From: Polyangiaceae bacterium
GTDB taxonomy: Bacteria; Myxococcota; Polyangia; Polyangiales; Polyangiaceae
DNA: 17,599 bases
Direction: 5' to 3'
NCBI GenBank assembly: GCA_025936205.1
Contig: JAICTU010000154.1
Location: 1 to 17,599, forward strand
Below, in pieces: positions 4,231 to 11,328 of this stretch. The translations under genes and the position numbers were made by a program. Every line of letters begins with the position of its first letter. Within the stretch, counting starts at the first letter, position 1. The notes below the pieces were generated by a model. The model was not told the origin of the DNA, made no database searches, and saw nothing but the letters and a program-made list of their open reading frames with translations.

Positions 4231-4277
4231 CTCGAGAGGTCGCCACCATTCACGGAGGCCGCCCTTCTCATTGGCGA

Positions 4278-4305
4278 AAACCCTGTTCGGCGCCGAACAG
4301 GGTTT
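4278..4305. terminator. Bidirectional terminator: 28-bp perfect palindrome
   Basis: 4278-4291 (AAACCCTGTTCGGC) is followed directly by its exact reverse complement at 4292-4305. It lies 47 bp after the GH5 stop and 36 bp after the end of msrBA on the other strand. The A-run on one side and T-run on the other suit termination in both directions. Confidence 0.85.
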
Positions 4306-4341
4306 CGAACTTTCAGATGCGCCCCGCGACGGGTCTCCGGC

Positions 4342-5517
<1,176 letters not shown>

Positions 5518-5687: not shown

Positions 5688-5781
5688 ATGTCTCCAGCGT
5701 CGAAAATCGGCACACGTTCGCTTCGAGAACGGACCGCCGTTTGCGCGTTTCTCGGGTGTTTCGCTGACGGATCCGGGATCG

Positions 5782-5879
5782 ATCCAGGATCGATAGGGTC
5801 GACGCTCGATGCATTTTTCTCGAGCAACAACCGCTCGCGACATCTGCACGAAATCTCCCCTCGCCCAGAGTCGGGGCGC
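5782..5879 (+). promoter_or_regulatory. Conserved leader upstream of nasA (copy 1 of 2)
   Basis: Two blocks match the region before marR. Block A is 5782-5813 against 10190-10221, 27 of 32 identical without gaps. Block B is 5838-5867 against 10251-10280, 28 of 30 identical. The blocks are 24 nt apart here and 29 nt apart in the marR copy. Block B ends 12 nt before ATG 5880. Possible hairpins here are CGAGC/GCTCG (5821-5825 with 5833-5837) and CGCCC/GGGCG (5862-5866 with 5874-5878), the latter covering the G-rich ribosome-binding region. Weaker similarity may extend upstream to ~5752. I do not recognise it as a named riboswitch class. Confidence 0.6.
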
Positions 5880-8006
5880 ATGGCTCGCGCCGCACCGCAA
5901 CTCCGACTCGTGACGGCGGAGACCACGAAGACGCATTGCCCGTACTGCGCGTTCCAGTGTGGCATGACGATCACGGCGCAGCACGCCGATCGGCGACAGC
6001 TGTCGATCCAGGCCGATCCCGAGTTCCCGGTGAACCGCGGGCAGATGTGCATCAAGGGTTTCACCTCCGCCGCGCTGCTCGATCATCCGGCGCGCCTGCG
6101 CAGCCCGATGTTGCGGCAGAACGGGCGGCTCGTGCCCGTCAGCTGGGATCATGCGCTCGACTTCGTCGCGCAGCGCCTGCGCGAGCTGAGCGAGCAGTAT
6201 GGCCCGGCGTCGCTGGGCGCCTTCGGCAGCGGTGCGCTCACCAATGAAAAGGCGTACCTGCTCGGCAAGTTCGTGCGCCTGGCGCTGCGCTCGCCCAACA
6301 TCGATTACAACGGCCGCTACTGCATGGCTTCGGCGGCAGCGGGCCAGAACAAGGCCTTCGGACTGGATCGCGGCCTGCCCTTCCCCGTCTCGGATCTGGC
6401 CGAGGCGCAGACGCTGCTGCTCTGGGGCTCCAACTGCGCCGAAACGATGCCGCCCATCATGCAATGGGTGTTCGAGCAGAAGAACCGCGGCGGCAAGCTG
6501 ATCGTGGTCGACCCGCGCCGCACCGATACGGCGCGCTCGGCGGCCTTGCACCTGCAGCCGACCCCCGGCACGGATCTGTCGCTGGCCAACGGCCTGTTGC
6601 ACCTGGCGATCGAGGAGAAGCTGCTCGATGAGCGGTACATCGCCGAGCGCACCGAGGGCTTCGATGCCGTGCGGCGCAGCGTGCTCACCAGCCATCCGGC
6701 GCACGTGGAGCGCGTCACGGGCGTGCCGATCGAGCTGCAGCGGAAAGCCGTGCGCTGGCTCGCCGGCGCGGAGCGCAGCATGGCGCTCTCGGGCCGCGGC
6801 ATGGAGCAGCAGTCCAAGGGTACCGACACCGTGCTGGCGCTGATCAATCTGATGCTGGCGCTGGGCAAGGTGGGCAAGCCCGCCAGCGGCTATGGCTGTC
6901 TCACCGGGCAAGGCAACGGTCAAGGCGGGCGCGAGCACGGTCAGAAGGCGGATCAGCTGCCCGGCTATCGCTACATCGAAGAGCCGAAGCACCGCGCCGA
7001 GGTAGCCAAGGTCTGGGGCATCGATCCGGCAGAGCTCCCCGGCAAGGGCAAGAGCGCTTACGAGCTGCTCGATTCGCTGGGACCCGCCGGCGGCATCCGC
7101 GCGCTGCTCGTGTTCGGGTCCAACGTGGCGGTGGCGTCGCCCAACTCCGGCAACATTGTCGACAAGCTCGCGCAGCTCGACCTGCTCGTGGTGTGCGACG
7201 CCTTCGAGAACGACACCTCCGCGAACGCGCACGTGCTCCTGCCCACGACGCAGTGGGCGGAGGAAGACGGCACCACCACGAACCTGGAGGGCCGCGTGAT
7301 CCTGCGCCGCCGCGTCCAGGACCCGCCGCAGGGTACGCGCTCGGACCTCGAGGTGTTCGTGGCGCTCAGCGCTCGGCTCGGGCGCCCGCACGGCTTTCAG
7401 TTCGAGTCGCCGCGCGAGGTGTTCGAGGAGCTGCGGCGCGCGACGGCGGGCTCCAAGGCGGATTACAGCGGCATCAGCTACGAAAAGCTGGAGCGCCAGC
7501 AAGGCGTGTTCTGGCCGTGCCCGAGCGAGCAGCACCCGGGTACCCCGCGCCTGTTCGCCGAGCGCTTCGCGCACCCCTCGGGCCGCGCGCGCTTTCATGC
7601 CGTGCCCTATCGCGCCGCGGCGGAGCTCCCCGACAGCGAGTACCCGCTCTACTTCACCACCGGGCGCTACAAGGAGCACTACAACTCCGGAGCGCAGACC
7701 CGGCGCGTGGCGCAGCTGGTCGACGCCAAGCCCGTGCCGCGGCTGCAGATGCACCCCAGCCTGGCGCGGCGGCTCGGCGTCAGCGAGGGGGAAGCCGTGC
7801 TGGTGGAGAGCCGGCGCGGCCAGGTGCGCTTCGACGTGCTGCTGTCCGGCGACATCCGCCCGGACACCCTGTTCGCGCCCTTTCACTGGGGCGGCAAGCA
7901 AGCCGCCAACCTACTCACGATACCGGCGCTCGATCCCGCGAGCCGCATGCCGGAGTTCAAAGTGTGCGCGGTCAAGGCCCGCGCCGCCGGACCGCTGAAG
8001 GATTGA
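5880..8006 (+). CDS. nasA: Assimilatory nitrate reductase, catalytic molybdenum subunit
   Basis: This 708-residue cytoplasmic enzyme of the Mo-bis-MGD (DMSO reductase) family reduces nitrate to nitrite. The N-terminal [4Fe-4S] cluster motif is Cys20-x2-Cys23-x3-Cys27 (THCPYCAFQCGM) with Cys57 (GQMCIKG). The Mo ligand is the cysteine in NGRYCMAS (Cys148), as in Nas/NarB/Nap enzymes rather than the Ser or Asp of DMSO reductase or NarG. Cofactor-binding stretches include WGSNCAETMPP, VVDPRRTDTA, TGQGNGQGGREHGQKADQLPG, and the C-terminal molydopterin-binding domain (YFTTGRYKEHYNSG to PFHWGG). I chose ATG 5880 because family homology begins just after it. The frame is open back to ATG 5688, but that 64-residue extension has no family match and overlaps the conserved leader. 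The next gene follows after nine bases in an operon. A different oxyanion substrate cannot be excluded, since no nitrite reductase is present nearby. Confidence 0.9.
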   Translation: MARAAPQLRLVTAETTKTHCPYCAFQCGMTITAQHADRRQLSIQADPEFPVNRGQMCIKGFTSAALLDHPARLRSPMLRQNGRLVPVSWDHALDFVAQRLRELSEQYGPASLGAFGSGALTNEKAYLLGKFVRLALRSPNIDYNGRYCMASAAAGQNKAFGLDRGLPFPVSDLAEAQTLLLWGSNCAETMPPIMQWVFEQKNRGGKLIVVDPRRTDTARSAALHLQPTPGTDLSLANGLLHLAIEEKLLDERYIAERTEGFDAVRRSVLTSHPAHVERVTGVPIELQRKAVRWLAGAERSMALSGRGMEQQSKGTDTVLALINLMLALGKVGKPASGYGCLTGQGNGQGGREHGQKADQLPGYRYIEEPKHRAEVAKVWGIDPAELPGKGKSAYELLDSLGPAGGIRALLVFGSNVAVASPNSGNIVDKLAQLDLLVVCDAFENDTSANAHVLLPTTQWAEEDGTTTNLEGRVILRRRVQDPPQGTRSDLEVFVALSARLGRPHGFQFESPREVFEELRRATAGSKADYSGISYEKLERQQGVFWPCPSEQHPGTPRLFAERFAHPSGRARFHAVPYRAAAELPDSEYPLYFTTGRYKEHYNSGAQTRRVAQLVDAKPVPRLQMHPSLARRLGVSEGEAVLVESRRGQVRFDVLLSGDIRPDTLFAPFHWGGKQAANLLTIPALDPASRMPEFKVCAVKARAAGPLKD

Positions 8007-8015
8007 GAACGAGCC

Positions 8016-9458
8016 GTGGCCAAGAAGAAGCTGGCGATCATCGGAAATGGCATGGGCACCTGCCGGCTGCTCGACGAGTTTGCACAACGCGACGGCTTCA
8101 CGCGCTACGAGGTGACCGTCTTCGGCGAGGAGATCGGCGGCGCCTACAACCGCATCCAGCTCGGCAAGGTGCTGGCCGGCGAGGCTCCGAGCGCGATCGT
8201 GACCAAGCCGCCCGAGTGGTACGATCAACACGGCGTGCGGCTGCTCGCCGGCACGCGCGTCCAATCCCTCGATCCCCTGCGCCGCAGCATCGAGACCGAC
8301 GACGGCCAGAGCCGGCGCTTCGATCTGGCCGTGCTCGCCACCGGCAGCCAGCCGCTGGTGCCGCCGCTGGAGAACCTGCTCGTCGAAAACGGCGAGCTGC
8401 GGCTGGGCGCCTTCGTGTACCGCACCATCGGCGACTGCCTGCGCATGCGCGAGCGGGTCCGCCCGGGCGACTGCGCGGTCGTGATCGGTGGCGGCCTGCT
8501 CGGGCTGGAGGCGGCCAAGGTGCTCTCCGATCTGGGGCTGCACGTGACGGTGGTACACGTGGCGCAGACGCTGATGAACGCACAGCTGGATCTGCTCGGC
8601 GGCGGCATGCTGTGCCGGCAGATCGAGCGCGCCGGCATCTTCGTGCGCACGGGCAGGACTGCCGAGGCCGTCTACGGAGAGGAGCGCATCGAGGGCGTGA
8701 TCCTGGACGACGGCACCTCGCTGCCGGCGGACCTGCTGGTGCTGGCCTGCGGTGTGCGCCCGCGCGTGGACGTGGCGCGCGCCGCCAAGCTGCCCGTGAA
8801 CAAGGGCATCCTCGTCAACGACACGCTCGCCACCTCCGTGCCCGGCGTGTACGCCTTCGGCGAGTGCGCCGAGCACCAGGGCAAGCTCTACGGCATCGTC
8901 GCGCCCGTCTGGGAGCAAGCCGTGGTGCTGGCCGACGTGCTGTGCGGCACCAAGCCGCAGGCGCGCTATCGCGGCTCCAAGCTCTATACGCGGCTCAAGG
9001 TGGCCGGCGTCGACGTGGCCTCCATGGGCAACCTGGAGCCGGAGCTGGAGAGCGACCAAGTCTACCAGGTGATCGAAGATCGCCGCAGCGCGTACCGCAA
9101 GCTGATCGTACGCGACGGACAGCTGGTGGGCGCGATGCTGGTGGGCAACACGGCGGCGGCCGCCACGCTCGTGCAGCTCTTCGACCGCGGCGATCCGCTG
9201 CCTGAAGACCCGCTGGAGGCCCTGGTCAGCGCGCGCAGCGGCGCTGCTGCGGCCCCCGCCGATCGCACCATTTGCAACTGTCACAAGGTGAGCGAGGCGA
9301 CCCTGCGCGAAGCGATCGCCAACGGAGCCGACTCGGTGGCGGCCCTGGGCGAATGCACCAAGGCCGGCACCGGCTGCGGCTCTTGCAAAGGTGAGCTCGG
9401 GCAGCTCGTCTCTACCCTCGTCAGGAAGCCCGCTGCCGCCCTGCAAGTCGCGAACTGA
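8016..9458 (+). CDS. NirB/NasB-like FAD-NAD(P)H oxidoreductase with C-terminal BFD [2Fe-2S] domain
   Basis: This 480-residue protein is the probable electron donor of NasA. The FAD-binding Rossmann motif is IIGNGMG (~8-14), with ATGS at ~108-111 and the second FAD motif GVYAFGECAE. The NAD(P)H-binding motif is VIGGGLLGLEA (~156-166). The C-terminal bacterioferritin-associated-ferredoxin-like domain has Cys420-x-Cys422 (ICNCHKV) and Cys454-x2-Cys457 (GCGSCKG), which should bind one [2Fe-2S] cluster. This architecture matches the N-terminal half of NirB and the electron-transfer subunits of assimilatory nitrate reductases. It lacks the sirohaem nitrite reductase domains of full NirB. The start is GTG 8016, nine bases after the nasA stop, with only a weak ribosome-binding site, suggesting translational coupling. 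The stop codon sits in a hairpin shared with the convergent downstream gene. Confidence 0.88.
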   Translation: MAKKKLAIIGNGMGTCRLLDEFAQRDGFTRYEVTVFGEEIGGAYNRIQLGKVLAGEAPSAIVTKPPEWYDQHGVRLLAGTRVQSLDPLRRSIETDDGQSRRFDLAVLATGSQPLVPPLENLLVENGELRLGAFVYRTIGDCLRMRERVRPGDCAVVIGGGLLGLEAAKVLSDLGLHVTVVHVAQTLMNAQLDLLGGGMLCRQIERAGIFVRTGRTAEAVYGEERIEGVILDDGTSLPADLLVLACGVRPRVDVARAAKLPVNKGILVNDTLATSVPGVYAFGECAEHQGKLYGIVAPVWEQAVVLADVLCGTKPQARYRGSKLYTRLKVAGVDVASMGNLEPELESDQVYQVIEDRRSAYRKLIVRDGQLVGAMLVGNTAAAATLVQLFDRGDPLPEDPLEALVSARSGAAAAPADRTICNCHKVSEATLREAIANGADSVAALGECTKAGTGCGSCKGELGQLVSTLVRKPAAALQVAN

Positions 9459-9474
9459 ACGCCCCGCGCGTTCA
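9456..9474. terminator. Hairpin containing both convergent stop codons
   Basis: TGAACGC at 9456-9462 pairs perfectly with GCGTTCA at 9468-9474 across a CCCGC loop. The first three bases are the oxidoreductase stop, and the last three are the stop of the minus-strand lipoprotein. A short convergent terminator is plausible, though neither side has a long T-tract. Confidence 0.5.
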
Positions 9475-9862
9475 ACGCACCGGGAAGATATGCACGCCCT
9501 TCTGGGTGACATTGTGAGCGTCATCGCCGGAATCGGCAACGAACAGACGATGCTCCTCCGGATCGTAGGCCACGCCGCTCGGTCGGGCCACTGCCGGGGC
9601 AGCGACGAACGACGTGACGCTGCCATCCGCATGAATCTGCCGGACGGCGACGGCCTCGGAAGAGCCCGGAACAGCCTTGAATTGCGCGCTGAAGATGCTG
9701 CCGTCCGGTCCTGCGCAGAGTTGATCGGGCACCGGCAGCCGAGCAAATGCTTTCCGCTGCGGAAGCGGCTGGAGCCGGCCGCGCCGCGGAGGAACAAGCG
9801 CTCAGCAGCCCAACGAGAACGAGCAGGCTCAAAGCCAGCGACCGAGAGGTGATCCGCAGCAT
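9472..9862 (-). pseudogene. NHL/SMP-30-like lipoprotein, frameshifted remnant
   Basis: Reading from ATG 9862 gives a clear lipoprotein signal (SLALSLLVLVGLLSAC, then SSAARPAP). The frame then changes somewhere in ~9765-9795, and the other frame reads PLPQRKAFARLPVPDQLCAGPDGS, then a segment with HADGSVTSFV, RPSGVAYDPEEHRLFVADSGD and a terminal VHIFPVR. Repeated DG, PSGVAYDP and LFVADSGD are typical of NHL or SMP-30-type beta-propeller blades. Only ~85 residues of propeller remain, far below the ~250-300 of a full propeller, so it is shortened as well as frameshifted. One extra base would explain the shift. It lies antisense inside the Nas/Mop region and ends 13 bases from the oxidoreductase stop. 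TTG 9871 is an alternative start. It is probably non-functional; if expressed it would be an outer-membrane or periplasmic lipoprotein of unknown role. Confidence 0.55.
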
Positions 9863-9930
9863 TTCGTCCAATGATGGTTTACAACATGCCAGGTTTGCTT
9901 GTCATCTAGACGCAGCCAAGGAGGCCGAAC

Positions 9931-10135
9931 ATGAAGCTCAGCGCTAGAAACGTCATCCCGGGCAAAGTGGTCGATGTGAAAAAGGGCCAGACGAGCGCAT
10001 GTTCGCTTGGACGTCGGCGGTACCATCATCACGGCCTCCATCACCAACGAGGCAGTGGACGACCTTGCCCTGAAGGTGGGCGACTCGGCTTCGGCCGTGA
10101 TCAAGTCGTCCGACGTGATCATCGCGAAGGATTGA
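9931..10135 (+). pseudogene. mop: Molbindin (Mop/TOBE-domain molybdate-binding protein), single-base frameshift
   Basis: Reading from ATG 9931 gives MKLSARNVIPGKVVDVKKGQTS. The frame then changes at about 9997, and the new frame continues HVRLDVGGTIITASITNEAV and on to VGDSASAVIKSSDVIIAKD with TGA at 10133-10135. Together these make a ~68-residue molbindin, the usual family length. Mop proteins assemble into hexamers and buffer or store molybdate in the cytoplasm. Removing one base at 9997 restores a perfect family sequence (QTSHVRLDV). A strong AAGGAGG (9918-9924) precedes the start at six bases, so the gene looks recently functional. The context fits: it sits beside a molybdenum enzyme. A sequencing error is as likely as a real mutation. 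Confidence 0.75.
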
Positions 10136-10151
10136 GCGAACGCTGGTTCGG

Positions 10152-10176
10152 GAGTATCCGCGCTGCGCGGATACTC
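10152..10176. terminator. 11-bp perfect hairpin between mop and marR
   Basis: GAGTATCCGCG (10152-10162) pairs perfectly with 10166-10176 across a CTG loop. It starts 16 bp after the mop stop. There is no T-tract, so it may instead be an operator or part of the structured region before marR. Confidence 0.5.
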
Positions 10177-10189
10177 TGCCGAGCGAGCC

Positions 10190-10291
10190 ATCCAGAATCG
10201 ATACAGTCGCCGATCGATGCAGGATGGATTTCGTCGAGCGCAGATGTCCCCGACATCTGCGCGAAATCTGCCCTCGCCCAACGTGTTGGGG
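10190..10291 (+). promoter_or_regulatory. Conserved leader upstream of marR (copy 2 of 2)
   Basis: Block A is 10190-10221 and block B is 10251-10280, matching the nasA leader at 27/32 and 28/30 positions. Block B ends 11 nt before ATG 10292. Hairpins here are a 9-bp perfect stem GCAGATGTC/GACATCTGC with a CCC loop (10240-10260) and CCCAA/TTGGG (10277-10281 with 10286-10290), which covers the G-run next to the start codon. The same places fold in the nasA leader, with different bases. Confidence 0.6.
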
Positions 10292-10750
10292 ATGCCCAAG
10301 CTCTCCAACGCCGATTACCGCTCCCTGGCCGCCTTCCGCTACGAGATTCGCAAGTTCCTGTCCTTCAGTGAGCAGGCCGCGCGCGAGGCCGGCATCGAGC
10401 CGCAGCAACACCAGCTGCTGCTCGCGGTGCGCGGCCTGCCCGAGACCTTGCGCCCCACGATTCGCACCATCTCCGAGCGACTGTGCGTGCAACACCACAC
10501 GGCGGTGGCGCTGGTGGACAAGCTCGAGGCGCGCGGCCTGCTGCAGCGCGAGCGCAGCACCATCGATCGGCGCGAGGTGCTGCTGCGGCTCACCGAGAGC
10601 GGCGCCGAGCTGCTGCGCGGCCTCTCCACGCAGCACCGGCAGCAGCTGCAGAGCGCGGGGCCCGAGATGCTCCACGCCTTGCAGACGATTGCGTCGGGTC
10701 AGGCGCGCCGACCGCGCGCGTCGAGCGCCGCCCTCGCCGCCGGCGACTGA
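10292..10750 (+). CDS. MarR-family transcriptional regulator
   Basis: This 152-residue winged-helix regulator would bind DNA as a dimer. A helical N-terminus (DYRSLAAFRYEIRKFLSFSEQAAREAG) leads to the PQQHQLLLAVRG segment. The recognition region is ISERLCVQHHTAVALVDKLEARGLLQRERS (~63-92), followed by the wing DRREVLLRLTESG (~95-107) and a C-terminal dimerisation helix. The tail (RRPRASSAALAAGD) looks disordered. ATG 10292 was chosen because family similarity begins directly after it. An upstream ATG at 10217 is in frame, but that extension lies inside the conserved leader. The shared leader and the mop/nas neighbourhood suggest it regulates this island and itself. The ligand is not predictable from sequence; nitrate, molybdate and oxidants are all guesses. 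It ends 11 bases from the convergent Uma2 gene. Confidence 0.85.
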   Translation: MPKLSNADYRSLAAFRYEIRKFLSFSEQAAREAGIEPQQHQLLLAVRGLPETLRPTIRTISERLCVQHHTAVALVDKLEARGLLQRERSTIDRREVLLRLTESGAELLRGLSTQHRQQLQSAGPEMLHALQTIASGQARRPRASSAALAAGD

Positions 10751-10761: not shown

Positions 10762-11328
10762 TTAGCGCGCCCAGAGCGCGGCCAGCTCGAGCTCGATGGC
10801 GTCGAAGGGCTCCGCGCGCACTTTGGCATCGCCGCCGTGGCTGGCTACGAGCCGGTAGCTCTCGCCATCGAGGCGAAGCACCTCGAGCAACTGTGCTGCG
10901 GGGTCGATGAGCCACACGTGACGTACCTTCTCGCGCCGATAGATCGGCAGCTTTTGTACGCGGTCGACGCGCTGAGTCGATGGCGACAGGACTTCTGCGA
11001 GCCAGTCCGGTGCTGTTGTCAGATAGGCGGCATCCGGCAGCTCCGGCAATGTCTCGCGCCGCCAGCCCGCAAGGTCCGGCACGAGAATGTCGGGTTCAAC
11101 GCCCAAGTGGAGCTCGGGCTCGTCGAGAATGATCCAACCGCCAGGGCCCCCTCTGCCACGCTTGAATGGAGGGCCCAGTTCTTCGCCCAGGACCGAGCTG
11201 GCCTGGGCGTGCGGAGTCGCCGGGCGGGGATGCGTGTACAACACCCCATCGATCACTTCCGCCACTTGGTGGGGCGGAGCGTCGAGCACGTCTTGATACG
11301 TGGCGCGGCGGCGTACGGGGACGTTCAT
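10762..11328 (-). CDS. Uma2-family protein (DUF820, PD-(D/E)XK nuclease fold)
   Basis: This 188-residue protein has the usual Uma2 length and order. An N-terminal helix and VAEVIDGVLY (Glu24) are followed by the HAQASSVLGEEL helix. Then come GWIILDEPELHLG, VEPDILVPDLAGW (Asp80), APDWLAEVLSPST (Glu112) and RVQKLPIYRREKVRHVWLIDP (Lys126). Asp80, Glu112 and Lys126 fit the PD-(D/E)XK active site, with Glu24 as the additional acidic residue. Uma2 proteins are very common in cyanobacteria and myxobacteria; they are annotated as putative endonucleases, but their biological role is unresolved. The gene is convergent with marR and divergent from the GH16 gene, with a 22-bp palindrome in the 99-bp gap. 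The start ATG 11328 has no strong ribosome-binding site. Confidence 0.88.
   Translation of the reverse strand: MNVPVRRRATYQDVLDAPPHQVAEVIDGVLYTHPRPATPHAQASSVLGEELGPPFKRGRGGPGGWIILDEPELHLGVEPDILVPDLAGWRRETLPELPDAAYLTTAPDWLAEVLSPSTQRVDRVQKLPIYRREKVRHVWLIDPAAQLLEVLRLDGESYRLVASHGGDAKVRAEPFDAIELELAALWAR

Follow-up and report, generated by a model that had tools for sequence, protein, structure and literature searches.

MarR, OhrR and HpaR are local repressors of the MarR family that regulate their own genes, and repression is the usual mode of action of MarR proteins. The nitrate assimilation locus considered here resembles these systems in that the winged-helix domain of its regulator scores above the Pfam cut-off and in that a palindromic site lies beside the regulator's own gene and a neighbouring operon, but it differs in its predicted target, an assimilatory nitrate reductase operon. 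In excerpts of the work on NasS-NasT, an RNA-binding protein acts on the nasA leader RNA (PMC3795266). Judged from these excerpts, our locus shares with NasS-NasT a predicted action in the nasA leader and differs from it in that a DNA palindrome tracks marR, with no terminator-like site found. Similarly, excerpts on Haloferax place an Lrp/AsnC protein at the nasABC promoter (PMC8143581); here too a protein that binds DNA regulates an assimilatory nas operon, although it belongs to a different protein family, comes from an archaeon and uses another site. The open-licence literature on MarR or Sorangium and nitrate assimilation, covered mostly at the level of titles and abstracts, yielded no account of a bacterial nas operon under a MarR-family regulator. 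The locus may offer nitrate assimilation in myxobacteria a local regulator and operator that can be tested, and the regulator may have left its operon yet kept control of it via a copy of the operon's control region.

The window, that is, the whole stretch of 17,599 nt that was analysed, carries on the forward strand nasA (5880..8006), which family matches identify as the catalytic subunit of an assimilatory nitrate reductase, a molybdopterin enzyme. Its best NCBIfam match is NasC, at a score below the NasC cut-off, and its nearest relatives (67-74% protein identity) come from records named as myxobacteria, one being named 'Proteobacteria'; the window itself is probably of Polyangiales type. 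Downstream on the same strand are a nasB-like FAD/BFD reductase gene (8016..9458), whose product resembles the N-terminal part of NirB, a molbindin (TOBE) gene (9931-10135), and marR (10292..10750). The molbindin gene is split over two frames, and the frame change near 9990-9998 could be either a real break or a sequencing error. The marR product belongs to the MarR winged-helix families (PF12802, 41.8 bits against a cut-off of 27; PF01047, 33.7 against 24.6) and reached the NCBIfam equivalog cut-off of no named MarR. Start codons at 5880 for nasA and 10292 for marR agree with the protein families and with relatives. Upstream of nasA, and in the opposite orientation, lies MsrAB (4342-5517). 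The nas locus is flanked by a Y1_Tnp (IS200-like) transposase gene (1426-2208) and a Uma2 endonuclease-like gene (10762-11328). Near-perfect long palindromes are found at 1536-1576 and at 4272-4311, the latter between convergent genes, and a perfect 12-bp inverted repeat with a 1-nt loop (10152-10176) separates molbindin from the marR leader; it is terminator-like but has no T run.

The leaders of nasA and marR share two blocks of sequence on the forward strand. Block A (5782..5813 before nasA, 10190..10221 before marR) is identical at 27/32 positions on recounting, and block B (5838..5867 and 10251..10280) at 28/30, as the sequence-only reading of this DNA had reported. The repeat is real and well above chance: aligned locally, the two leaders score 46.5, the highest of 1436 random window pairs being 25.5, and all 14 direct pairs of 30-mers in the window with at least 25/30 identical positions fall inside blocks A and B. 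The same reading described one leader of about 100 nt with weaker similarity further upstream. The two common blocks stand, but they are not continuous, being spaced by 24 nt before nasA and 29 nt before marR, and the upstream similarity is at chance level (of up to 2000 random pairs, 1392 score at least as high as 5700-5780 against 10100-10188). Likewise, there is no significant similarity between the blocks (229 of up to 2000 random pairs reach the score) or after block B (247). Block B ends 12 nt before the nasA start codon and 11 nt before that of marR, exactly as first measured. Because the spacing from A to B varies while the distance from block B to the start codon is nearly constant, the blocks look like separate modules. 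The marR leader also contains an 11-bp inverted repeat (10238-10248 / 10252-10262), the right arm of which is the left part of block B; the nasA leader has no counterpart of it.

One explanation for such a repeat is that marR moved together with a duplicate of the control region, the likeness reflecting common descent without constraint. The two leaders belong to one locus, 4.4 kb from each other, and two relatives (G003 and G007) have just one leader for the operon, both of which would fit a duplication. However, the divergence is patchy, with two well-kept blocks, chance-level similarity between and around them and unequal spacing, and this points to selection on the blocks. At the protein level, three MarR homologues also have an N-terminal peptide resembling a translation of block B, and we regard unconstrained descent as distinctly improbable.

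This peptide deserves a closer description. In the marR frame, block B reads TSARNLPSP, and neither of the two positions at which the leaders differ changes a residue of that reading (by eye). The corresponding N-terminal extension, MARTSARNLSSRNLLT, was seen in homologues P0003, P0004 and P0094 (3 of the 28 sequences read, from 120 listed among 2589 matches), a hint that block B DNA may be kept before marR in a sister species. Block B as a leader peptide was nevertheless rejected, given that nasA uses another frame, in line with the earlier codon-phase argument against a conserved N-terminal peptide, and that 21/28 homologues start directly at an MPKLS-type methionine. A search of the translated leaders in the protein set gave no match.

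Clues to the function of block A come from the gene order in relatives. MarR searches gave matches in 13 of 183 genomes of the order (at E 1e-20), 3 of 377 of the phylum and 15 of 317 of the class, in overlapping sets. In G003 and G007, marR directly follows nasB as the third gene of a nasA-nasB-marR operon, and in G510, a member of the class set that is absent from the order set, the genes after nasA are a shortened nasB and a frameshifted marR. The window MarR falls into one clade (19 rows, support 95/91) with the MarRs encoded in the operons; the tree does not resolve orthology between the window marR and the operon marR, and this counts against an operator reading of block A.

The nasA leaders of G003 and G007 carry TATCGAGCATCGATA, a 10/10 match to the palindrome TATCG-N5-CGATA. 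The same motif was scored before 15 marR genes and matched at 10/10 in six, 9/10 in three and 8/10 in one; the other five reach at most 7/10, two of them being the operon-internal marR genes of G003 and G007. Random 340-nt regions reached at least 9 in 74/5000 draws and exactly 8 in 385/5000 (459/5000 at 8 or better), and these draws came from the same loci, so that some of their matches are true sites. The exact motif has nine genomic places in 158 sources (1.58 Mb), all nine before a marR or the nasA-nasB-marR operon; the sources partly overlap and were chosen for holding marR or nasA, only L199 having been fetched by the motif and kept in the set. Across 16 whole genomes there are 39 exact sites, against 12 for a reversed control pattern, and in each of eight genomes exactly one site lies before marR or nasA. 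The motif occurs once in the 8.7-Mb genome of G003, before nasA, twice in G007, with one site before nasA, and once in G091, before marR. However, most exact sites lie away from marR and nasA in most of the 16 genomes, which also counts against the operator reading.

Four genomes were examined after the motif had been fixed, and they gave one full fit, two partial fits and one failure: G526 has a 10/10 site, G288 two 8/10 sites 16 bp apart, the nasA leader of G510 an 8/10 site, and G437 at best 6/10, the last again counting against the operator reading. In G510 (L205, 5871-6413), the site in the nasA leader remains despite the shortened nasB and the frameshifted marR. The nearest marR (74%), a stand-alone gene in G167, is another adverse case, its best site reaching only 6 of 10. 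No convincing site precedes the stand-alone marR of G146 (6) or the second marR copy of G003 (7) or of G007 (8) either. A motif match in G146, 1.1 kb before a nasA-like gene, was discarded as a nas site because it falls within a different coding frame. Upstream of their second marR copies, G007 (L100) and G003 (L101) have another stretch in common, CACTATACAGAACTAATC..ATCTTATA. A different common stretch, GTTTAC..CGCTTGGTCGAnTCTTGAC, precedes nasA in L004, L005 and L006, from genomes in which the MarR search gave no match at E 1e-6.

In both window leaders, block A opens with nATCCAGnATCGATA, which aligns with the site of the relatives. The candidate site I, on the forward strand, is GATCCAGGATCGATA before nasA (5781..5795) and CATCCAGAATCGATA before marR (10189..10203), each a degenerate 8/10 match. 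A possible site II follows 16 bp further on, at 7/10, as GGTCGACGCTCGATG (5797..5811) and AGTCGCCGATCGATG (10205..10219). The same spacing of two sites is seen in loci L099 and L142 and, by genome, in G139 and G288. Site I is identical at 12/15 columns in four leaders (window nasA, window marR, G003 and G007) and at 10/15 when G510 is added. No random register pair, of up to 20000 drawn, equalled the summed score of the aligned site I pair (16), and among the 1024 half-site motifs just 10 perform on this pair as well as the motif of the relatives. With 31 bp of block A as the query, the best match in 1.70 Mb of loci lies before marR in G139 (site 8967-8997, first marR start 9046), tied with an unrelated place in L038. 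A looser pattern, TC[CG]AGnATCGAT[AG], occurs at seven places in the 158 sources. Two are the window leaders, three are the nasA leaders of G003, G007 and G510, and the other two lie in L145 and, within coding sequence, in L199; the 6.2 Mb of G510 contain two such sites, one of them in the nasA leader. For ATCSAGNATCGATA, 32 matches were found in 26 of the 183 genomes of the order, two of them recognised as nas leaders. Compared with G003 and G007 alone, the window leaders are unremarkable (13/15 or better in 120/3000 random pairs). Nor does the number of 8/10 sites in the window, four, exceed what shuffles give (mean 3.23; at least four in 77/200), a further point against the operator reading.

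A palindrome before the regulator's own gene and its target is clear in relatives, whereas the window has a degenerate form of it. Alternatively, both leaders might be bound by another regulator, for example of nitrogen or redox metabolism, with marR merely a co-target of nasA. The degenerate window sites, at a number not above chance, would suit this explanation, as would block B, which is better conserved than block A, is unrelated to the MarR motif and has an ATCT direct repeat with an 11-bp period (by eye). It is opposed by the way in which the motif tracks marR: nasA leaders have it at 10/10 in both cases with a linked marR (2/2) and reach at most 7/10 at all nine places without one (0/9 with the motif). 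Outside nas loci, too, the motif is found where marR genes begin. We consider a different regulator rather improbable.

On balance, we favour as probable the reading in which the MarR encoded at 10292-10750 has block A as its operator, placed before both units and giving autoregulation as well as control of nasAB. This operator option had been raised from the window alone. For block A it is strengthened by the nasA-nasB-marR operons of the relatives and by the clade-specific palindrome before nasA or marR; it does not account for block B. In this scenario, MarR proteins of the clade would bind TATCG-N5-CGATA, of which the opening of block A would be a degenerate copy, with a second, weaker site probably 16 bp downstream. 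In G003 and G007, one operator before nasA would serve nasA, nasB and marR. In the window, marR would form a unit of its own behind a second copy of the control region, which would let one regulator govern nasAB and itself, and marR may have left the operon with a copied leader. Most simply, MarR would act at block A as a repressor that is released by a ligand linked to nitrate use. Block B, for its part, may be an independent element connected with the initiation of transcription or translation.

Block B, searched with up to three mismatches, is absent from the 183 genomes of the order and has two copies in the window; a dispersed repeat, which would undermine a regulatory reading, was not seen in these 183 genomes. 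It was not found in viral contigs, nor was the nasA leader found in plasmids. A sigma-70 promoter was not recognised in the leaders, which also weighs against the operator reading, and no terminator-like site was found in them. Given that block B lies so close to both start codons, it or the whole leader could be a cis-acting RNA, for instance a start-proximal hairpin that hides the ribosome binding site, a sensor of Moco, molybdate or nitrate, or a leader of the NasT type. When block B is folded by itself together with the sequence that leads to the start codon, a similar small hairpin forms in both leaders, the first bases of the block pairing with unlike pre-start tails (pairing 0.83 and 0.98). 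This pairing was reached by 0/1000 and 27/1000 tail shuffles, and random 56-mers reach 0.8 in 90/4000 cases. The marR leader as a whole also folds well (z -4.12). However, the hairpin test was chosen after the folds had been seen, and in longer context the pairing is 0.00 in both leaders, block B pairing upstream instead. The two-row consensus energy of the hairpin is matched by 48/500 shuffles, the short folds have z of only -0.41 and -1.47, and the long fold of the nasA leader, at z -0.63, differs from that of marR. No Rfam family matches either leader at gathering score; there is no match up to E 1 at nasA, and the marR leader has one sub-threshold match, on the other strand. A known riboswitch is not supported. 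The search for ANTAR proteins, with matches in 0/6 related genomes, carries no weight for or against a NasT-type leader, since its controls gave no match either. Of the RNA sensor proposed from the sequence, there survives the small start-proximal hairpin, seen when block B is folded alone; the case that these folding models make for an RNA role of block B is weak, and we consider a cis-acting RNA very improbable as the explanation of the leaders.

The wider MarR clade offers a broader perspective on what the regulator may sense. A CLC channel gene comes immediately after marR in several of the distant members, at 48-58% identity. We consider it unlikely, though worth entertaining, that a myxobacterial MarR clade with the operator TATCG-N5-CGATA works as an anion-responsive switch, with assimilatory nitrate reductase under one branch and CLC anion channels under another, and with nitrate or some other anion as its possible signal. 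In the same scenario, block B would be an additional element at the start of both genes, specific to the lineage and conceivably an RNA hairpin that can adopt either of two mutually exclusive folds. At one position in CLC proteins, GSGIP is typical of chloride and GPGIP of nitrate. The channel family, PF00654, was confirmed beside marR in L102, L103 and L108 and also adjoins the marR of a 41% member, L145; all four of these CLC neighbours have GHGIP at that position.
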